Assembly (NCBI GenBank): GCA_903847415.1
Contig: CAINDR010000004.1
Coordinates: 1 to 33,052, forward strand
DNA from: Candidatus Falkowiibacteriota bacterium
Lineage (GTDB): Bacteria > Patescibacteriota > Patescibacteriia > Patescibacteriales > UBA12465
Direction: 5' to 3'
Length of the DNA: 33,052 nt
The position numbers and the translations under genes are program-made. Below the pieces are notes generated by a model. That model was given only the letters and a program-made list of their open reading frames with translations. It ran no database searches and had not been told where the DNA came from. Shown here one piece after another: positions 27,258 through 32,830 of this stretch (the first letter of the stretch is position 1; the number at the start of each line of letters is the position of its first letter).

Positions 27258-27560
27258 TTATACCATTTTTCTCTTTATATAATTTTCTGCTTCCCGCTCA
27301 ACATAAGTCCAGGCAGAAAAGTGTATTCCTTTTTGTTCACTATAAATCCAAGGATCTTCACCAAAGAATCTATAGCGCCTGATAAGCTCTTCGACACTTA
27401 TATTAGGAAGGTATACGCCATCCATACTGTTTTCGGTAATAATCTTGCATGCCTCGATTGCTTCTTCTAGTGTATTGTATTCCCCCGCTCTATAGCGATA
27501 GCTTTCATCCATATGATGAAAATTATCATCTACATATACTATAACTTTTTTGTTTTCCAT
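27258..27560 (-). CDS. Small conserved-looking acidic protein
   Basis: From ATG at 27560 the protein has 100 residues with a beta-strand start (KKVIVYVDDNFHHMDESYRYRAG), a helix (NTLEEAIEACKIITENSM), and then EELIRRYRFFGEDPWIYS and HFSAWTYVEREAENYIKRK. I think similar small proteins occur widely with unknown function, from memory only. GGGAGG, 8 nt before the ATG, is the strongest Shine-Dalgarno site I noticed in the window, and a GTG 9 nt upstream of the ATG overlaps it and is rejected. The gene lies behind a ~190-nt leader RNA with a terminator and before the HD-domain gene. Confidence 0.75.
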   Translation of the reverse strand: MENKKVIVYVDDNFHHMDESYRYRAGEYNTLEEAIEACKIITENSMDGVYLPNISVEELIRRYRFFGEDPWIYSEQKGIHFSAWTYVEREAENYIKRKMV

Positions 27561-27590: not shown

Positions 27591-27660
27591 AAAAAAAGCG
27601 GCTAAGAGATTTACCCAAAAGATATTGCTATCTCTTAGATTGAAATCTCCCAACCGCTTT
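27591..27660 (-). terminator. Large two-step terminator hairpin of the leader RNA
   Basis: On the minus strand an 18-nt arm (27660-27643) pairs with 27612-27595 through Watson-Crick and G-U pairs and is followed by T7. The 30-nt interior forms its own hairpin, AGAGATA-GCAA-TATCTTT. It sits between the leader RNA and the Shine-Dalgarno site of the 100-residue gene, as in attenuators. Confidence 0.8.
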
Positions 27661-27780
27661 AACGATTAGTCATTCATTACATCTGGCTCTCAGCAGATTT
27701 CCCTGATTGCCTATTCACACGAGGTGAAAGAAATAAATGGTGCTGTTATGCTCCGCACTAGAGCTTGTATTGTTAACTAC
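27661..27780 (-). ncRNA. Putative structured leader RNA (unidentified cis-regulator)
   Basis: About 120 nt between a promoter and a large terminator with no protein-like frame. On the minus strand it can form at least three local helices: GTGC...GCAC (about 27757-27737), TTCAC-CTC-GTGTGAA (about 27727-27713) and ATCTG-CTGAGAGC-CAGAT (about 27699-27682). I compared it from memory with T-box, TPP, FMN, purine, preQ1, guanidine and cobalamin classes and found no match. Confidence 0.55.
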
Positions 27781-27786
27781 ATTATT

Positions 27787-27815
27787 AGTTTACCTTATAA
27801 TTAGTGAAAAGTCAA
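27787..27815 (-). promoter_or_regulatory. Promoter of the leader RNA / HD-protein operon
   Basis: On the minus strand TTGACT (27815-27810) and TAAACT (27792-27787) are 17 nt apart, placing the start near 27780. Confidence 0.55.
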
Positions 27816-27848: not shown

Positions 27849-28541
27849 TTACTTTAATAAGAAAATCGCATCCCCTTGCTTAGTGAGCTTCTCTGCTCCA
27901 TCTCGTCCCAATATTAAAGCCGAATCTTCTTTAGTGGTTGTTTTAAACGCAAGGCGGGCAGGAATATTATCTTTCATTAAGCCAGTAAAAACTTCCGGAG
28001 ATGGCCGCGAAGAAGCCATTATCATATGGATTCCAACAACGCTACTCGTTTGCGCCAATCTTAATACTTGAGATTCAAATTTACTTGTTTCTCCTAAAAT
28101 AAAATCGGACATTTCATCCATCACAAAAACCACATAAAACATTTTATTTTTGTGTTTTTTGTTGTAAGTTTCAATGTTTTTACAACTGGATTCCATTAAA
28201 ATATCATAACGACGATTTACTTCATCTACGCACCAATTCAAAGCATCGACAACGTCCTTGGCTTTCCATAAAACCGGCCTCAAGAGAAAGGGATTCCCAT
28301 CGTAAACAGGTAAATCACATTTTTTAGCATCAGCTAAAATAAGTTTCAAGACATCTGGAGTGTTTTGAGCTATCAAACTATTAATAACGGAATGGAGAAA
28401 ATAAGATTTCCCAGAACCAGTTTCTCCACCTACAAATAAGTGTGGTAGCAAATGCAAATCAAAACTAAACGGTTTGCCATTGGTGTCCTTATCAAAAGTA
28501 ACAACTAAATTTGCTGCCACTGATTTTAGCTCTGTTTTCAT
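27849..28541 (-). CDS. Free-standing FtsK/SpoIIIE-like motor domain
   Basis: From ATG at 28541 the protein has 230 residues: the RecA-like motor of the FtsK family alone. Walker A GGETGSGKS is at 38-46, KLILADAKKCDLPVYDG at about 66, Walker B VVFVMDEMSDF at 137-147, and the family signature SSRPSPEVFTGLMKDNIPARLAF at about 177. The membrane domain, linker and the DNA-recognising gamma winged helix of cell-division FtsK are all absent, and the chain stops soon after GDAIFLLK, slightly shorter than usual. It begins 7 nt after the hsdR stop and is therefore co-transcribed with the type I restriction genes. It may pump or grip DNA for that system or derive from a conjugative/integrative element. 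The longer frame from 28586 overlaps hsdR and is rejected. Confidence 0.85.
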   Translation of the reverse strand: MKTELKSVAANLVVTFDKDTNGKPFSFDLHLLPHLFVGGETGSGKSYFLHSVINSLIAQNTPDVLKLILADAKKCDLPVYDGNPFLLRPVLWKAKDVVDALNWCVDEVNRRYDILMESSCKNIETYNKKHKNKMFYVVFVMDEMSDFILGETSKFESQVLRLAQTSSVVGIHMIMASSRPSPEVFTGLMKDNIPARLAFKTTTKEDSALILGRDGAEKLTKQGDAIFLLK

Positions 28542-28548
28542 ATATTTA

Positions 28549-31500
28549 TTATAATTTCCCGCCAGAAATATCAAAAAACCTTTCAAAAAAACTTGTCAGT
28601 TTAGTTAAGACGCTTTCGCGTTTCTTGCTACGCTCACCTGTTGGAGAAAATCTAGAAACTGGTGGTAAAACTTTTGTAATAGCGGTACCAGTTGTTGCAA
28701 CACTACCATCACGGAAGGAATTTTTTACAAATAAATAAGTTGCATCGTGGTCCAAGCCTTCGTTATCAATGATCTTATCGAGTTCCTCAAATTTTTTCTT
28801 ATCTACAAATTTATGCCAGTCTTCATCGATAACCGAATGAACATCAAGTGAGTTAATAAATTGATTAATAAGCTCCTTTTTATTTCTTAATTCAAAACTG
28901 GAATCTATAGCCTTATTAATATCAATCAGAATTTCACGATTTTTATTGTGATCTTCATGATATCTCTTGATAAGCCCTAATACAAAATCAATATTAATTT
29001 CCACCTGTTTAATGAGCTCCATCTCAAATACTAAATCGTCATTAATATTTTCTTGCTCAACCTCTATGCCCTTTCGAAATTCATTATAGAGGTCTATGTA
29101 CATACTGTGGTAATCCTGAACATCGCGCTCAGTCAGAATCTTATTGCCAATAAATTCATCAAAAGTTGTTAAAATATTGCGTACTCGTAAAATGCCACTA
29201 TATAGTTTAATAAAATCTTTTTGCGCTTGTTCGCCAATAATGCGTTCGCCCACAGGAAATTTTTCCAAGAGTTCGGTTGCTAGGCTGACATAGCCCCGGA
29301 CTTCCTTGTCACCATCTTTATATCCATTATAATATTCTTCATATGATTTAAGAAGGACAATACCACCCGCTTCTTTATCGCCAAATAGTGCGATAGACTC
29401 ATTTGTCGCTTTTTCTAAATTACGAAAGCAAACAACGTTTCCAAAAGTCTTAACGCTATTTAAAATACGATTTGTGCGTGAAAATGCCTGTAAAAGACCA
29501 TGCAATCTAAGATTTTTATCTACCCACAAAGTATTAAGTGTTATCGCATCAAACCCAGTTAAAAACATGTTAACCACAATAAGCACGTCAATTTCACGAT
29601 TTTTAACTCTTAAGCTTACATCTTTATAATAATTTTGAAATTTATCAGACGAGGTATCATAAGAAGTTCCAAACATAGCATTATAATCAGTAATGGCGTT
29701 GTCCAGAAAATCTCTAGAGCTAACATCAAGCCCGCTAGTATCTTCAGAATTTTCGTCTATCATTCCATCAACATCCTCATCATTCACTCCAAAGCTATAA
29801 ATGGTTGCTACTTTAAGTTTTTGGTCACTCGGCACGTCAGCGAGTTGTTTTTTAAATTCAGCGTAATATTTTTTAGCAACATCAATAGATGAGACAGCAA
29901 AAATAGAATTAAAGCCAGCTAATCTGCGGTCCTTAAGTTTATAAAGACTATTGCGCTTGGTTTTCTGATCAAAGTGTTCACGAATATAACTAACAATGTT
30001 TGTTAATCGTTCTGGTGATGCAAGTACTGCTTCGCGATCAATATCGCTCACTTTTTTATCTTCAATATTCTCAGCTTCATGAACTGTAGAAACATAATCA
30101 ACTTTAAAAGGTAAAACATTTTTATCAGCGATAGCGTCAACAATAGTGTAGGTGTGTAATTTTTCTCCGAATGCCTGCTCTGTAGTTTTCAAATCTGGTC
30201 TTCCTCCAGCAGATGCATTCTTCGAGAAAATAGGAGTTCCAGTAAAACCAAAAAGATTATAGTTTTTAAACGTTTTTGTAATTGCAGCATGCATGTCACC
30301 AAACTGAGAACGATGACATTCGTCGAAAATAAGAACCACGTGAGCATCAAAGATAGTGTGTCCTGCATTACGACCGATAAAACGATCGAGCTTCTGTATA
30401 GTTGTTATAATAATACGTGTATTTGGGTTTTCTAATTGTCGCTTTAAAATTGTTGTGCTGGTATTGCTATTAGCTGCGCCTTTTTCAAATTTGTCATATT
30501 CTCGCATCGTCTGATAATCTAAGTCCTTACGATCAACGACAAACACAACCTGATCAACAGAAGGAATTTTACTGACTAACTGTGCTGTTTTAAAACTAGT
30601 TAAAGTTTTTCCTGATCCAGTGGTATGCCAAATATAACCACCTGCTTCTACTGTGCCAAGTTTTTTATAATTTGTACTAACCTCTATACGACTTAAAATT
30701 TTCTCTGTTGCTACTATCTGGTAGGGTCGCATAACCAAAAGTTGTCGATCGGTAGTAAATACACAATAGCGAGTTAAAATATTCAAAAGGGCATGCTTGG
30801 CAAAAAATGTTTTGCTAAAATCCATTAAATCGGTAATCGGACGATTAGTAGCATCTGCCCACCAACTAGTAAATTCAAAACTACTACTTGCTCGCTTACC
30901 TTTCTTTACTATTCCCTCACTTGATTCTTTTATATGTTCAGAGCGAGTAGTGTTACTGTAATATTTTGTATGTGTGCCATTAGAAATAATAAATAATTGA
31001 ACATATTCGAACAACCCAGCAGAAGCCCAGAAACTTTCACGCTGATAGCGATTAATCTGATTAAAGGCTTCAGCAATAGCAACTCCTCGACGTTTTAGCT
31101 CGACATGTACCATCGGCAAACCGTTTACAAGAATTGTCACATCATAACGGTTAGAGCGCTGACCATCTTCTGTCGTATATTGATTTATAACCTGCAAACT
31201 ATTGTCGTGAATATTATCCTTTTTAATAAGATATATGTTCTTAGTCGTCCCGCTGTCACAAATTAGATTCTTGACGTGATCCTCTTGAATTGTTGCAGTT
31301 TTTTCTGCGATACTTTGATTTGGATTAGCCAGCTCGCCCACAAAAAAACGCTCCCATTCAGAATCGGCAAAAGTATAGTTATTAAGCTTCTCTAATTGCA
31401 GGCGGAGATTCGCGGTCAAATCAGCCTCGGAAGTAATAGAGAGGTATTCGTATGCTTGAGTCTCTAATTGTTTAATAAAAGCCTGTTCGAGTTCTGCCTC

Positions 31501-31602
31501 GCTTTGATAATGAGCCACGCGAACACTATTTGTAGTATATTCCGCCACCACAGTACTTTGAGAATTTTCTGCGACAAGATTATATTTATTATTAATCGAC
31601 AT
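28549..31602 (-). CDS. hsdR: Type I restriction enzyme, R subunit
   Basis: The 1017-residue motor-nuclease of a type I restriction-modification complex, which translocates and cuts DNA lacking the host methylation. The PD-(D/E)xK nuclease motif is intact: YDVTILVNG with D154 and VELK with E168 and K170. The SF2 helicase follows, with TTGSGKT at 327, LIFDECHRSQFG at 424 and FTGTPIF at 453. The rest is the helicase second half (MFLTGFDAITLNTLWVDK) and the helical C-terminal part that binds the methylase core. The start overlaps the hsdS end by 11 nt. It appears complete. Confidence 0.96.
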   Translation of the reverse strand: MSINNKYNLVAENSQSTVVAEYTTNSVRVAHYQSEAELEQAFIKQLETQAYEYLSITSEADLTANLRLQLEKLNNYTFADSEWERFFVGELANPNQSIAEKTATIQEDHVKNLICDSGTTKNIYLIKKDNIHDNSLQVINQYTTEDGQRSNRYDVTILVNGLPMVHVELKRRGVAIAEAFNQINRYQRESFWASAGLFEYVQLFIISNGTHTKYYSNTTRSEHIKESSEGIVKKGKRASSSFEFTSWWADATNRPITDLMDFSKTFFAKHALLNILTRYCVFTTDRQLLVMRPYQIVATEKILSRIEVSTNYKKLGTVEAGGYIWHTTGSGKTLTSFKTAQLVSKIPSVDQVVFVVDRKDLDYQTMREYDKFEKGAANSNTSTTILKRQLENPNTRIIITTIQKLDRFIGRNAGHTIFDAHVVLIFDECHRSQFGDMHAAITKTFKNYNLFGFTGTPIFSKNASAGGRPDLKTTEQAFGEKLHTYTIVDAIADKNVLPFKVDYVSTVHEAENIEDKKVSDIDREAVLASPERLTNIVSYIREHFDQKTKRNSLYKLKDRRLAGFNSIFAVSSIDVAKKYYAEFKKQLADVPSDQKLKVATIYSFGVNDEDVDGMIDENSEDTSGLDVSSRDFLDNAITDYNAMFGTSYDTSSDKFQNYYKDVSLRVKNREIDVLIVVNMFLTGFDAITLNTLWVDKNLRLHGLLQAFSRTNRILNSVKTFGNVVCFRNLEKATNESIALFGDKEAGGIVLLKSYEEYYNGYKDGDKEVRGYVSLATELLEKFPVGERIIGEQAQKDFIKLYSGILRVRNILTTFDEFIGNKILTERDVQDYHSMYIDLYNEFRKGIEVEQENINDDLVFEMELIKQVEINIDFVLGLIKRYHEDHNKNREILIDINKAIDSSFELRNKKELINQFINSLDVHSVIDEDWHKFVDKKKFEELDKIIDNEGLDHDATYLFVKNSFRDGSVATTGTAITKVLPPVSRFSPTGERSKKRESVLTKLTSFFERFFDISGGKL

Positions 31603-32830
31603 ATTTGTTGAAAGTTAAGAGTTTTTCTCTGTAATATTCGTATTGAGACCTGCGGGCGGAAACTTCCGCCGCCAAACCTAATGAAATGTCGTTCATAAGT
31701 AAATCGAGTTTATCAAGATTTTTAACAATCTCTTGCTGGATCTTAATTGGCGGAACAGGAATGATTGCTTTTTTTAAACCAGAGGCATTTATAGACGAAA
31801 TTTTACCAGATGATATATATTGTTCTATCTGAGAATGAAAATTCTTAGTTTGTAAAAAATAAGAAACATATTTTGGATCCAAATTGTGTACAAAGGTAAA
31901 ACAGGCATCATGAGTTACAATATCCGAATCTCCTAACCACGCCACCCCTCTCCCAATATCTTCGATGGTCTCACCGGCCGCTACAATAATAACATCCCCT
32001 GGGTGTGCAACCCTGAGTTTTTTTGCTAAAGATGGCTCCAAAAAAGACTTAGACTCTCGTGCCCAGATATTATAATGGGTATACATTTCTCCATAATGGA
32101 TGCATGGGACACCTTTTGCAACAATATCGCTTTTAACGAATCTCTTTCCTCTAAAAAAAGTTCCAAGCTCTCCCAAAGTTTTATGCTCAACATCTTTAAT
32201 ATTAAACATTTCATCTCTATAATGCTTATATTGTTTCTTTCTGTCTTCTAGTTCTTTCTTGAGTTCTTTTTCTAGTTCCGCCTTTAGCTCTGTAAAACTG
32301 TCCAGAATTTCAACAATTTTTTCTTGAATTACAATTGGAGGAAGAGGAATTTTAATTGATAATATTTTTGCCATATCTGGGTGCTTAACCCCAGAACCAC
32401 GAAAACAATTTTCAATATAATCATTTTTAACTAAAAGATAGTAATAACAATATTTTAAGTTTAATATTTTATGATTAAATGAGCTGGCTAAGATATTTCC
32501 GCTATCAACAAACATGCCTTTGTAATATTTTAAATTCGCCGAACCGCCTGATGGGATAGCAATAACTTCACCGTTATTTAGATTTTCTCTGGCCAAATCT
32601 TCATTAGTCCAACCATTAAACTGTCCTGTAGACAATAATTTAACGCACCCATTGGGAGTTTCTAAATCCTTCAATTTTTTAGCGGAAACATGCCTAAAAG
32701 ATAAAACCTTTGTCTGTTTTTCTTTTGACACTCCATTGAATCTTTTATCCCAAACTGTGAGCTCCCTTAGCTCTTTAAATTCCATTACCTTCGGGCAGAG
32801 CTCATCTATTAGTTTGTCGATTTTACTCAT
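31592..32830 (-). CDS. hsdS: Type I restriction enzyme, specificity subunit
   Basis: A 412-residue DNA-recognition subunit with the standard two target-recognition domains, each closed by a conserved helix: LPPIVIQEKIVEILDSFTEL followed by a long charged coiled coil (about 165-205), and VPPIKIQQEIVKNLDKLDLL near 360-385. It sets the bipartite sequence recognised by both methylase and nuclease. No truncation is seen. Its ATG lies 12 nt after the stop of the remaining hsdM end, the usual M-S-R order. Confidence 0.95.
   Translation of the reverse strand: MSKIDKLIDELCPKVMEFKELRELTVWDKRFNGVSKEKQTKVLSFRHVSAKKLKDLETPNGCVKLLSTGQFNGWTNEDLARENLNNGEVIAIPSGGSANLKYYKGMFVDSGNILASSFNHKILNLKYCYYYLLVKNDYIENCFRGSGVKHPDMAKILSIKIPLPPIVIQEKIVEILDSFTELKAELEKELKKELEDRKKQYKHYRDEMFNIKDVEHKTLGELGTFFRGKRFVKSDIVAKGVPCIHYGEMYTHYNIWARESKSFLEPSLAKKLRVAHPGDVIIVAAGETIEDIGRGVAWLGDSDIVTHDACFTFVHNLDPKYVSYFLQTKNFHSQIEQYISSGKISSINASGLKKAIIPVPPIKIQQEIVKNLDKLDLLMNDISLGLAAEVSARRSQYEYYREKLLTFNKYVD

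Follow-up and report, generated by a model that had tools for sequence, protein, structure and literature searches.

A pseudoknotted leader RNA preceding HD-protein genes, a probable new class of transcription switch

Introduction

The ZTP riboswitch is an ON switch in which a stabilised pseudoknot serves as the antiterminator (PMC7337938). Its aptamer, also known as ZTP/ZMP or pfl, is pseudoknotted, and the 3′ strand of that aptamer is the 5′ arm of the terminator (PMC7337938), an arrangement to which the leader RNA described here bears a likeness. Phosphorylated nucleotides are sensed by ykkC subtype 2a, the ligand of which is ppGpp, and by the PRPP riboswitches, and the ppGpp class of ykkC RNAs activates its genes (PMC7266159). 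In a 2024 review of Patescibacteria, riboswitches are mentioned only as possible genetic tools (PMC11665869).

The leader lies in a stretch of DNA of 33,052 nucleotides, which we refer to as the window. As a pairing pattern, it meets the hallmark of the ZTP riboswitch, an antiterminator pseudoknot that shares a strand with the terminator. This concerns the working principle only and not membership of the class, as the leader has a three-way junction, an additional hairpin (P5) and a pseudoknot that starts from the loop of hairpin P4, and both its conserved sequence and its genes are different. The pfl/ZTP model in Rfam did not match the leader and neither did the ykkC-related models, so by this criterion the leader belongs to neither class. 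Whereas the ppGpp class of ykkC RNAs controls amino-acid biosynthesis genes, the present leader precedes HD hydrolases. A sequence-only reading had been unable to assign the leader to a known class, and the search of Rfam 15 (4227 families) bears this out: the window and the relatives of the leader gave no match at gathering thresholds, and relaxed E-values yielded only chance-level matches far below the family cut-offs. A literature search, limited to open-licence papers and therefore only weak evidence of absence, revealed no such element in the present group of bacteria or before alarmone hydrolases. The element is a new orphan riboswitch-like class, absent from Rfam and from the open-licence literature searched.

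Results and Discussion

The element is sparse but spans several classes of one phylum

Among 192 related genomes queried by DNA search, five besides that of the window contain clear relatives of the leader, with 75–92% identity, although the related genomes searched gave no match to the adjoining 100-aa gene. The alignment of these first relatives consists of long invariant blocks and hypervariable loops. We built a covariance model, R1, from six leaders, and models were then used to enlarge the set to 32 non-identical members. With R1, 23 of the 381 genomes searched from the same class proved to carry the element (E-values of 1e-4 to 1e-27), and it was also found in other classes of the phylum. 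Its occurrence is sparse and scattered: an even draw of the phylum contained it in three of 380 genomes, the classes of two other members in 4/192 and 3/152 genomes, and the richest order sampled in 7/41. The genomes that carry the element measure 0.5–1.7 Mb, a range compatible with the Patescibacteria presumed in the sequence-only reading.

Searching for the leader via the 100-aa protein was abandoned, as relatives of this protein occur elsewhere without the leader; the reason is that the companion of the element is the HD gene and not the 100-aa protein. The plasmid and phage collections contained no DNA match to the element. A pattern of the conserved core retrieved 54 matches from viral contigs, which is chance level, and a stricter two-part pattern identified one IMG/VR contig as a true member (L124). 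Two genomes assigned to different families (G794 and G533, members L097 and L098) are 100% identical over 3120 bp around the element, owing either to a transfer in recent times or to misbinning of a contig.

Five stems and a pseudoknot are conserved

The conserved RNA domain, including the strand that it shares with the terminator, occupies positions 27762–27641 of the minus strand, on which the elements below also lie, and matches all 120 positions of covariance models R1 and R2. Its predicted fold consists of a 5′ hairpin (P1), a three-way junction in which P2 encloses P3 and P4, a hairpin P5 and a pseudoknot. Hairpin P1 (27758–27740) pairs GUGC at 27758–27755 with GCAC at 27743–27740; four of its five pairs changed on both sides among the members, and 97.5% of its alignment cells are paired. 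The junction is closed by P2, formed by CAUUUAUU (27739–27732) and AAUGAAUG (27678–27671), where seven of eight pairs changed on both sides. RNAalifold lengthens P2 by two pairs, including C27730–G27680 (column pair 44–121, CG in 28 members and UA in four). P3 joins UUC at 27728–27726 to GAA at 27716–27714, with two more pairs possible; its length varies among members, all three counted pairs changed on both sides and 99% are paired. P4 is made up of two helices, GGC 27711–27709 with GCC 27687–27685 and UCAG 27706–27703 with CUGA 27693–27690, in which 97.9% and 98.4% of the cells are paired and four of seven pairs changed on both sides. Its loop contains GGGAAAUCU, and conserved unpaired bases are found both there and at the junction. 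The pseudoknot links GAAAUCU in the P4 loop (27701–27695) to AGAUUUC (27648–27642), with 99.1% of cells paired across the 32 members. Hairpin P5, the putative antiterminator, pairs CUAAUCG (27669–27663) with CGGUUGG (27656–27650): its first five pairs are standard in 100% of the 32 members, with U-G/C-G and A-U/G-U exchanges, and the two pairs next to the loop in 87.5%.

The several local helices that had been noted from the sequence alone are real, but that picture was incomplete, as it lacked P2, which is a long-range stem, together with P5 and the pseudoknot. These are the parts that make the leader a switch. Our own first structure attempts lacked P5 and the pseudoknot, and the switch was missed there as well.

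Compensatory changes were counted in an alignment of the 32 non-identical members (A7), with a structure of 37 pairs or 1184 cells. Mean pairwise identity among the members is 58%, with a minimum of 27%. Standard pairs fill 97.0% of the cells (80.9 in shuffled alignments), and 22 of the 37 pairs changed on both sides (15.2 in shuffles), accounting for 200 cells against 51.0. The covariation score is 0.525, compared with 0.190 for shuffled alignments and 0.036–0.090 when the partners were slid by one to three columns. Because A7 was fitted to the P1–P5 of the model, these counts are biased towards those stems. Still, the initial MAFFT alignment of six sequences, with P1 loops trimmed, has the same pattern (score of 0.405 vs 0.215), and RNAalifold recovered P1–P5 without a supplied structure, with 21 of 31 pairs compensated. 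Folded alone, the aptamer RNA of the window spontaneously forms P1–P5, and its folding energy is no better than that of shuffles (z = −0.63).

The pseudoknot pairs were left out of the model that built the alignment. Changes on both sides of these pairs are confined to L117 and L148, which are also the only members with a differing AGAUUUC strand. L117 (GAGGUCU/AGAUCUC) keeps all seven pairs, with one compensatory change from A-U to G-C, while L148 (AGGACCC) keeps five of the seven, with two compensatory changes and two register mismatches, and also offers a shifted GGG/CCC plus CCU/AGG pairing. Few pairs vary otherwise, and this joint change of the P4 loop and AGAUUUC in two members is the best comparative evidence for the predicted pseudoknot. 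An Rfam hit to a known class, or homologous leaders without conserved stems other than the terminator, had been named as results that would refute the sequence-only reading. Neither was seen, and 32 leaders keep five stems and the pseudoknot with abundant compensatory changes. They support the riboswitch or attenuator architecture read from the window, without data on ligand or transcription.

The terminator and the putative antiterminator share one strand

As the sequence-only reading had it, the leader ends in an intrinsic terminator (27660–27591), in which an 18-pair basal stem (27660–27596) contains a second, inner hairpin and is followed by T7 (27597–27591). A terminator with a T tract is found in 32/32 members, with a stability of about −30 to −40 kcal/mol in most. 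The whole leader of the window folds with z = −4.95 and none of 200 shuffles was as good, mostly owing to the terminator.

The 5′ arm of the terminator, CGGUUGGGAGAUUUC (27656–27642), is the same strand that P5 and the pseudoknot take up. Since both structures use CGGUUGGGAGAUUUC and all 32 members have the terminator, the P5/pseudoknot fold and the terminator are mutually exclusive. The two arms of the terminator also differ in conservation: 28 of the 32 members share an identical 5′ arm, whereas the 3′ arm has at least 17 forms, which mostly keep the pairing through G-C/G-U exchange. A nearly invariant 5′ arm alongside a drifting 3′ arm is the pattern that a second partner for the 5′ arm alone should produce. 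A riboswitch should lie in the 5′ leader of related genes and have a conserved RNA structure that covaries, both of which hold here. Its expression platform should offer two exclusive folds, as the present one does on sequence comparison, in the absence of an experiment. That the leader is a transcription switch with two exclusive predicted folds is, in our judgement, very probable.

HD proteins follow the leader in most members

The first gene of the operon in the window (27560–27258, minus strand) encodes a 100-aa protein of a family with the sequence YVDDNFHH, for which no Pfam or NCBIfam family scored above its cut-off; a small protein of unknown function had been expected here. Its relatives are 39–46% identical and come from scattered MAGs, one of them adjoining an HD gene. 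The family occurs in MAGs of Acidobacteria, Chloroflexi and Micrarchaeota and on plasmids of Granulicella, Bradyrhizobium and Caballeronia. In the Micrarchaeota MAG (L006:2399–3264), its gene adjoins an HD gene without the present leader.

The second gene (27238–26459, minus strand) encodes a 259-aa HD protein that is small-alarmone-hydrolase-like and has a Cys-rich C-terminal part (HD_4, E-value of 5.3e-16). Its best PDB matches are 7qoe, 7qoc, 4yf1, MESH1 and RelA/SpoT hydrolase domains, in agreement with the alarmone-hydrolase-like protein proposed from the sequence. It keeps the H...HDxxED...D pattern, and the alignment places the H, HD, ED and SAD positions. Small alarmone hydrolases have an HD domain of RelA/SpoT type with the residues H, HD, ED and D, and the 259-aa protein meets this description. 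Judged by its sequence, it resembles small alarmone hydrolases, without assay data on the hydrolysis of (p)ppGpp, (p)ppApp or NADPH. The zinc ribbon that had been assigned to it is less secure: CxxC pairs are visible, but the profile match is weak (16.9 bits against a cut-off of 27). PADLOC matched neither the HD protein nor the 100-aa protein to a defence family.

HD_4 matches are rare in the genome of the window, with only three in 0.93 Mb, while an HD protein is the first or second downstream gene in 24 of the 32 members; the best-scoring ones are small-alarmone-hydrolase-like. Of these 24 cases, 21 rest on a Pfam HD_4 or HD match (E-values of about 1e-22 to 0.003, several below Pfam gathering scores) and three on similarity or motif only (L107, L113 and L115), where the reading frames of L113 and L115 are broken. 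The HD protein of L126 also matches small alarmone hydrolases and RelA/SpoT hydrolase domains. Divergence is greater in the subgroup of L104–L108 type, part of which scores below the Pfam cut-offs. In five members (L129, L131, L133, L134 and L135), HD is fused to at least three different uncharacterised domains, which elsewhere behind the same leader are separate genes or parts of other fusions.

Three members have partner genes only: L103 encodes an N-terminal domain also seen in L129 and L146, and L109 and L152 encode the CxxC domain of L105. Such partner genes accompany HD or are fused to it in other members. The remaining five members are followed by other genes. These are unknown in L116, L150 and L124; in L099, they encode a small membrane protein and then a type IIG-like restriction-methylation enzyme. 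In L117, the downstream gene encodes AAA-Csx3 (NCBIfam TIGR02579, 76.8 bits against a cut-off of 55.4), which PADLOC also identified. This member (G529; gene at L144:6750–8611) is the most divergent by sequence context and has a TTGACA-17-TATAAT promoter before AAA-Csx3, a CRISPR ring-nuclease family.

A predicted ON switch, possibly with a nucleotide-type ligand

Comparison of the homologous leaders shows the predicted fold, the pseudoknot, the exclusive pairing, the conserved promoter (see below) and the HD-gene context. From these, we propose that RNA polymerase would start at the promoter and produce P1, then the P2-P3-P4 junction, and then P5 and the pseudoknot. With the P5 strand CUAAUCG and the P4 loop GAAAUCU holding CGGUUGGGAGAUUUC, no terminator would form and the operon would be read. 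If this fold is not stabilised, the downstream strand AAAUCUCUUAGCCG would capture CGGUUGGGAGAUUUC, and the resulting terminator would end transcription ahead of the Shine-Dalgarno site. Binding of a small molecule to the three-way junction and the pseudoknot may stabilise the antiterminator, giving an ON switch in a ZTP-like arrangement. We regard it as likely that the leader is an undescribed class of 5′-leader transcription switch, probably ON, with both its ligand and its direction being inferences. Sensing of a small molecule is also fairly likely, though inferred without binding data.

The ON direction is favoured somewhat less firmly and is inferred without transcription data. Selection preserves the state in which the aptamer incorporates the terminator 5′ arm, hence stabilising the aptamer should let transcription continue. 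Against the switch reading as a whole, the pseudoknot is so conserved that only few of its pairs vary, and of the 32 members, five precede other genes and three precede accessory genes alone. The ligand, for which a nucleotide or a metal had first been suggested, may be a nucleotide akin to what the HD enzymes act on, such as (p)ppGpp or (p)ppApp, in which case the hydrolase would be made as its substrate rises. An alarmone-type ligand is our leading guess, though an inferred and doubtful one. The host genome also carries a RelA/SpoT protein with hydrolase and synthetase domains, from which we infer that (p)ppGpp is probably a real signal in the host. Because the host has this ordinary RelA/SpoT protein, the need for an extra alarmone hydrolase is not obvious.

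A protein or RNA partner could take the place of the small molecule. The same switch might be worked by a protein in autoregulation, be it an RNA-binding protein or a product of the operon, such as the 100-aa protein or the Cys-rich partners. The element is repeatedly accompanied by small accessory proteins or domains, HD-fused in some members, and a protein-bound leader would likewise covary. However, the accessory proteins differ and are absent from several members (e.g., L098, L108 and L112), while the RNA core is constant. The conserved unpaired bases of the junction and the P4 loop are aptamer-like as well, although a protein site is possible too. We consider a protein-worked switch improbable, but it is the alternative that survives best.

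It is more doubtful still that a ligand would stabilise the terminator (OFF), or that no ligand is involved and folding kinetics or the supply of nucleoside triphosphates set readthrough. The very stable terminator makes a default-off leader with kinetic escape possible. Yet the terminator 5′ arm lies within the conserved P5 and pseudoknot, so the antiterminated state is the most constrained, and a purely kinetic attenuator would have no use for a P4 loop and junction that hardly vary.

The element is the 5′ leader of the downstream genes

The leader (27815–27591, minus strand) has an FtsK-like gene, which ends at 27849, on its upstream side and a start codon at 27560 on its downstream side. 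A near-consensus promoter had been proposed at its upstream end, and a sigma-70-type site is indeed present there, composed of TTGACT (27815–27810), 17 nt and TAAACT (27792–27787) with a 9/12 match; we infer that transcription starts at about 27780. Promoter-like matches in the window are no more common than chance (22 found vs 20.2 expected). Taken alone, the match in the window would not convince, as the background of such sites equals expectation. Its position is conserved, with a sigma-70-like site ending 24–33 nt upstream of P1 in 27 of the 32 homologous leaders, where the mean best promoter score is 9.9, against 7.7 in shuffles. The terminator is followed by a strong Shine-Dalgarno site, AGGGAGGTGA (27575–27566, minus strand), and the ATG at 27560, again as first read.

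A prosaic explanation is that the hairpin terminates the upstream type I restriction operon, the conserved part being a stable 3′ end. Only about 190 nt separate the hairpin from the end of the upstream genes at 27849, which would allow for this, but the promoter of conserved position lies in between. Moreover, the upstream genes vary from member to member whereas the downstream HD gene is common, and with the Shine-Dalgarno site directly after the T tract, the interval is too short for any promoter. The downstream genes are co-directional with the element and start about 60–150 nt past the aptamer in most members. We find this explanation very unlikely: on the comparative evidence of the conserved promoter, the co-directional downstream genes and the variable upstream genes, the element appears to be a 5′ leader and not the 3′ end of the upstream operon. 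Weakest of all is leader-peptide attenuation, in which translation of a short upstream frame would choose between terminator and antiterminator: ORFs of at least eight codons exist in 25 of the 32 leaders, but we rejected this reading because they are not conserved, differing in position, length, frame and start codon, lacking in seven leaders and having a Shine-Dalgarno-like site in only five, and because the region is paired RNA with compensatory changes and not codon-like.

An orphan riboswitch candidate with legible anatomy

As an orphan riboswitch candidate, the 5′ leader has an unusually clear anatomy, with antiterminator, pseudoknot and terminator all legible from the alignment, and what was an unknown leader is now open to testing through 32 natural variants. 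Should its ligand prove to be an alarmone, alarmone breakdown would be under the control of an RNA sensor that does not belong to the ykkC group. Provided that the hosts are Patescibacteria, to which their genome sizes point, the element would also supply a signal input for bacteria with little-explored gene regulation.

Ring nucleases such as Csx3 remove a nucleotide second messenger. The member that precedes Csx3 fits a nucleotide-sensing scaffold with a changed ligand, but as one divergent case it is suggestive only. The boldest version of our proposal is that small-genome bacteria possess a new class of riboswitch that responds to alarmone-type nucleotides by turning on the enzymes that destroy them, with the specificity of L117/L144 shifted to cyclic oligoadenylate. 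We think this unlikely to hold in full; if the shift is true, the RNA of that member would sense a second messenger of CRISPR systems.

Other features surround the element. Directly upstream in the window (27849–32830, minus strand) are the FtsK-like ATPase gene and type I restriction genes, the latter being hsdR (28549–31602, PADLOC) and an hsdS-like gene (31592–32830). L124 and L127 likewise have restriction genes flanking the element, and in L138 and L139 a similar gene is nearby. The element may travel in defence islands. About 1.2 kb downstream of the element, beyond the HD gene, lies a SAM-I riboswitch (26397–26291, minus strand; RF00162, 62.3 bits, E-value of 2.3e-12), the only one in the genome. 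It precedes a gene for an unknown 85-aa Cys-rich protein (26215–25958) and more small unknown genes. While it is also a leader riboswitch, its sequence and fold are unrelated to those of the element studied here. Given the small genome, it seems unusual to find two leader switches within 1.5 kb.
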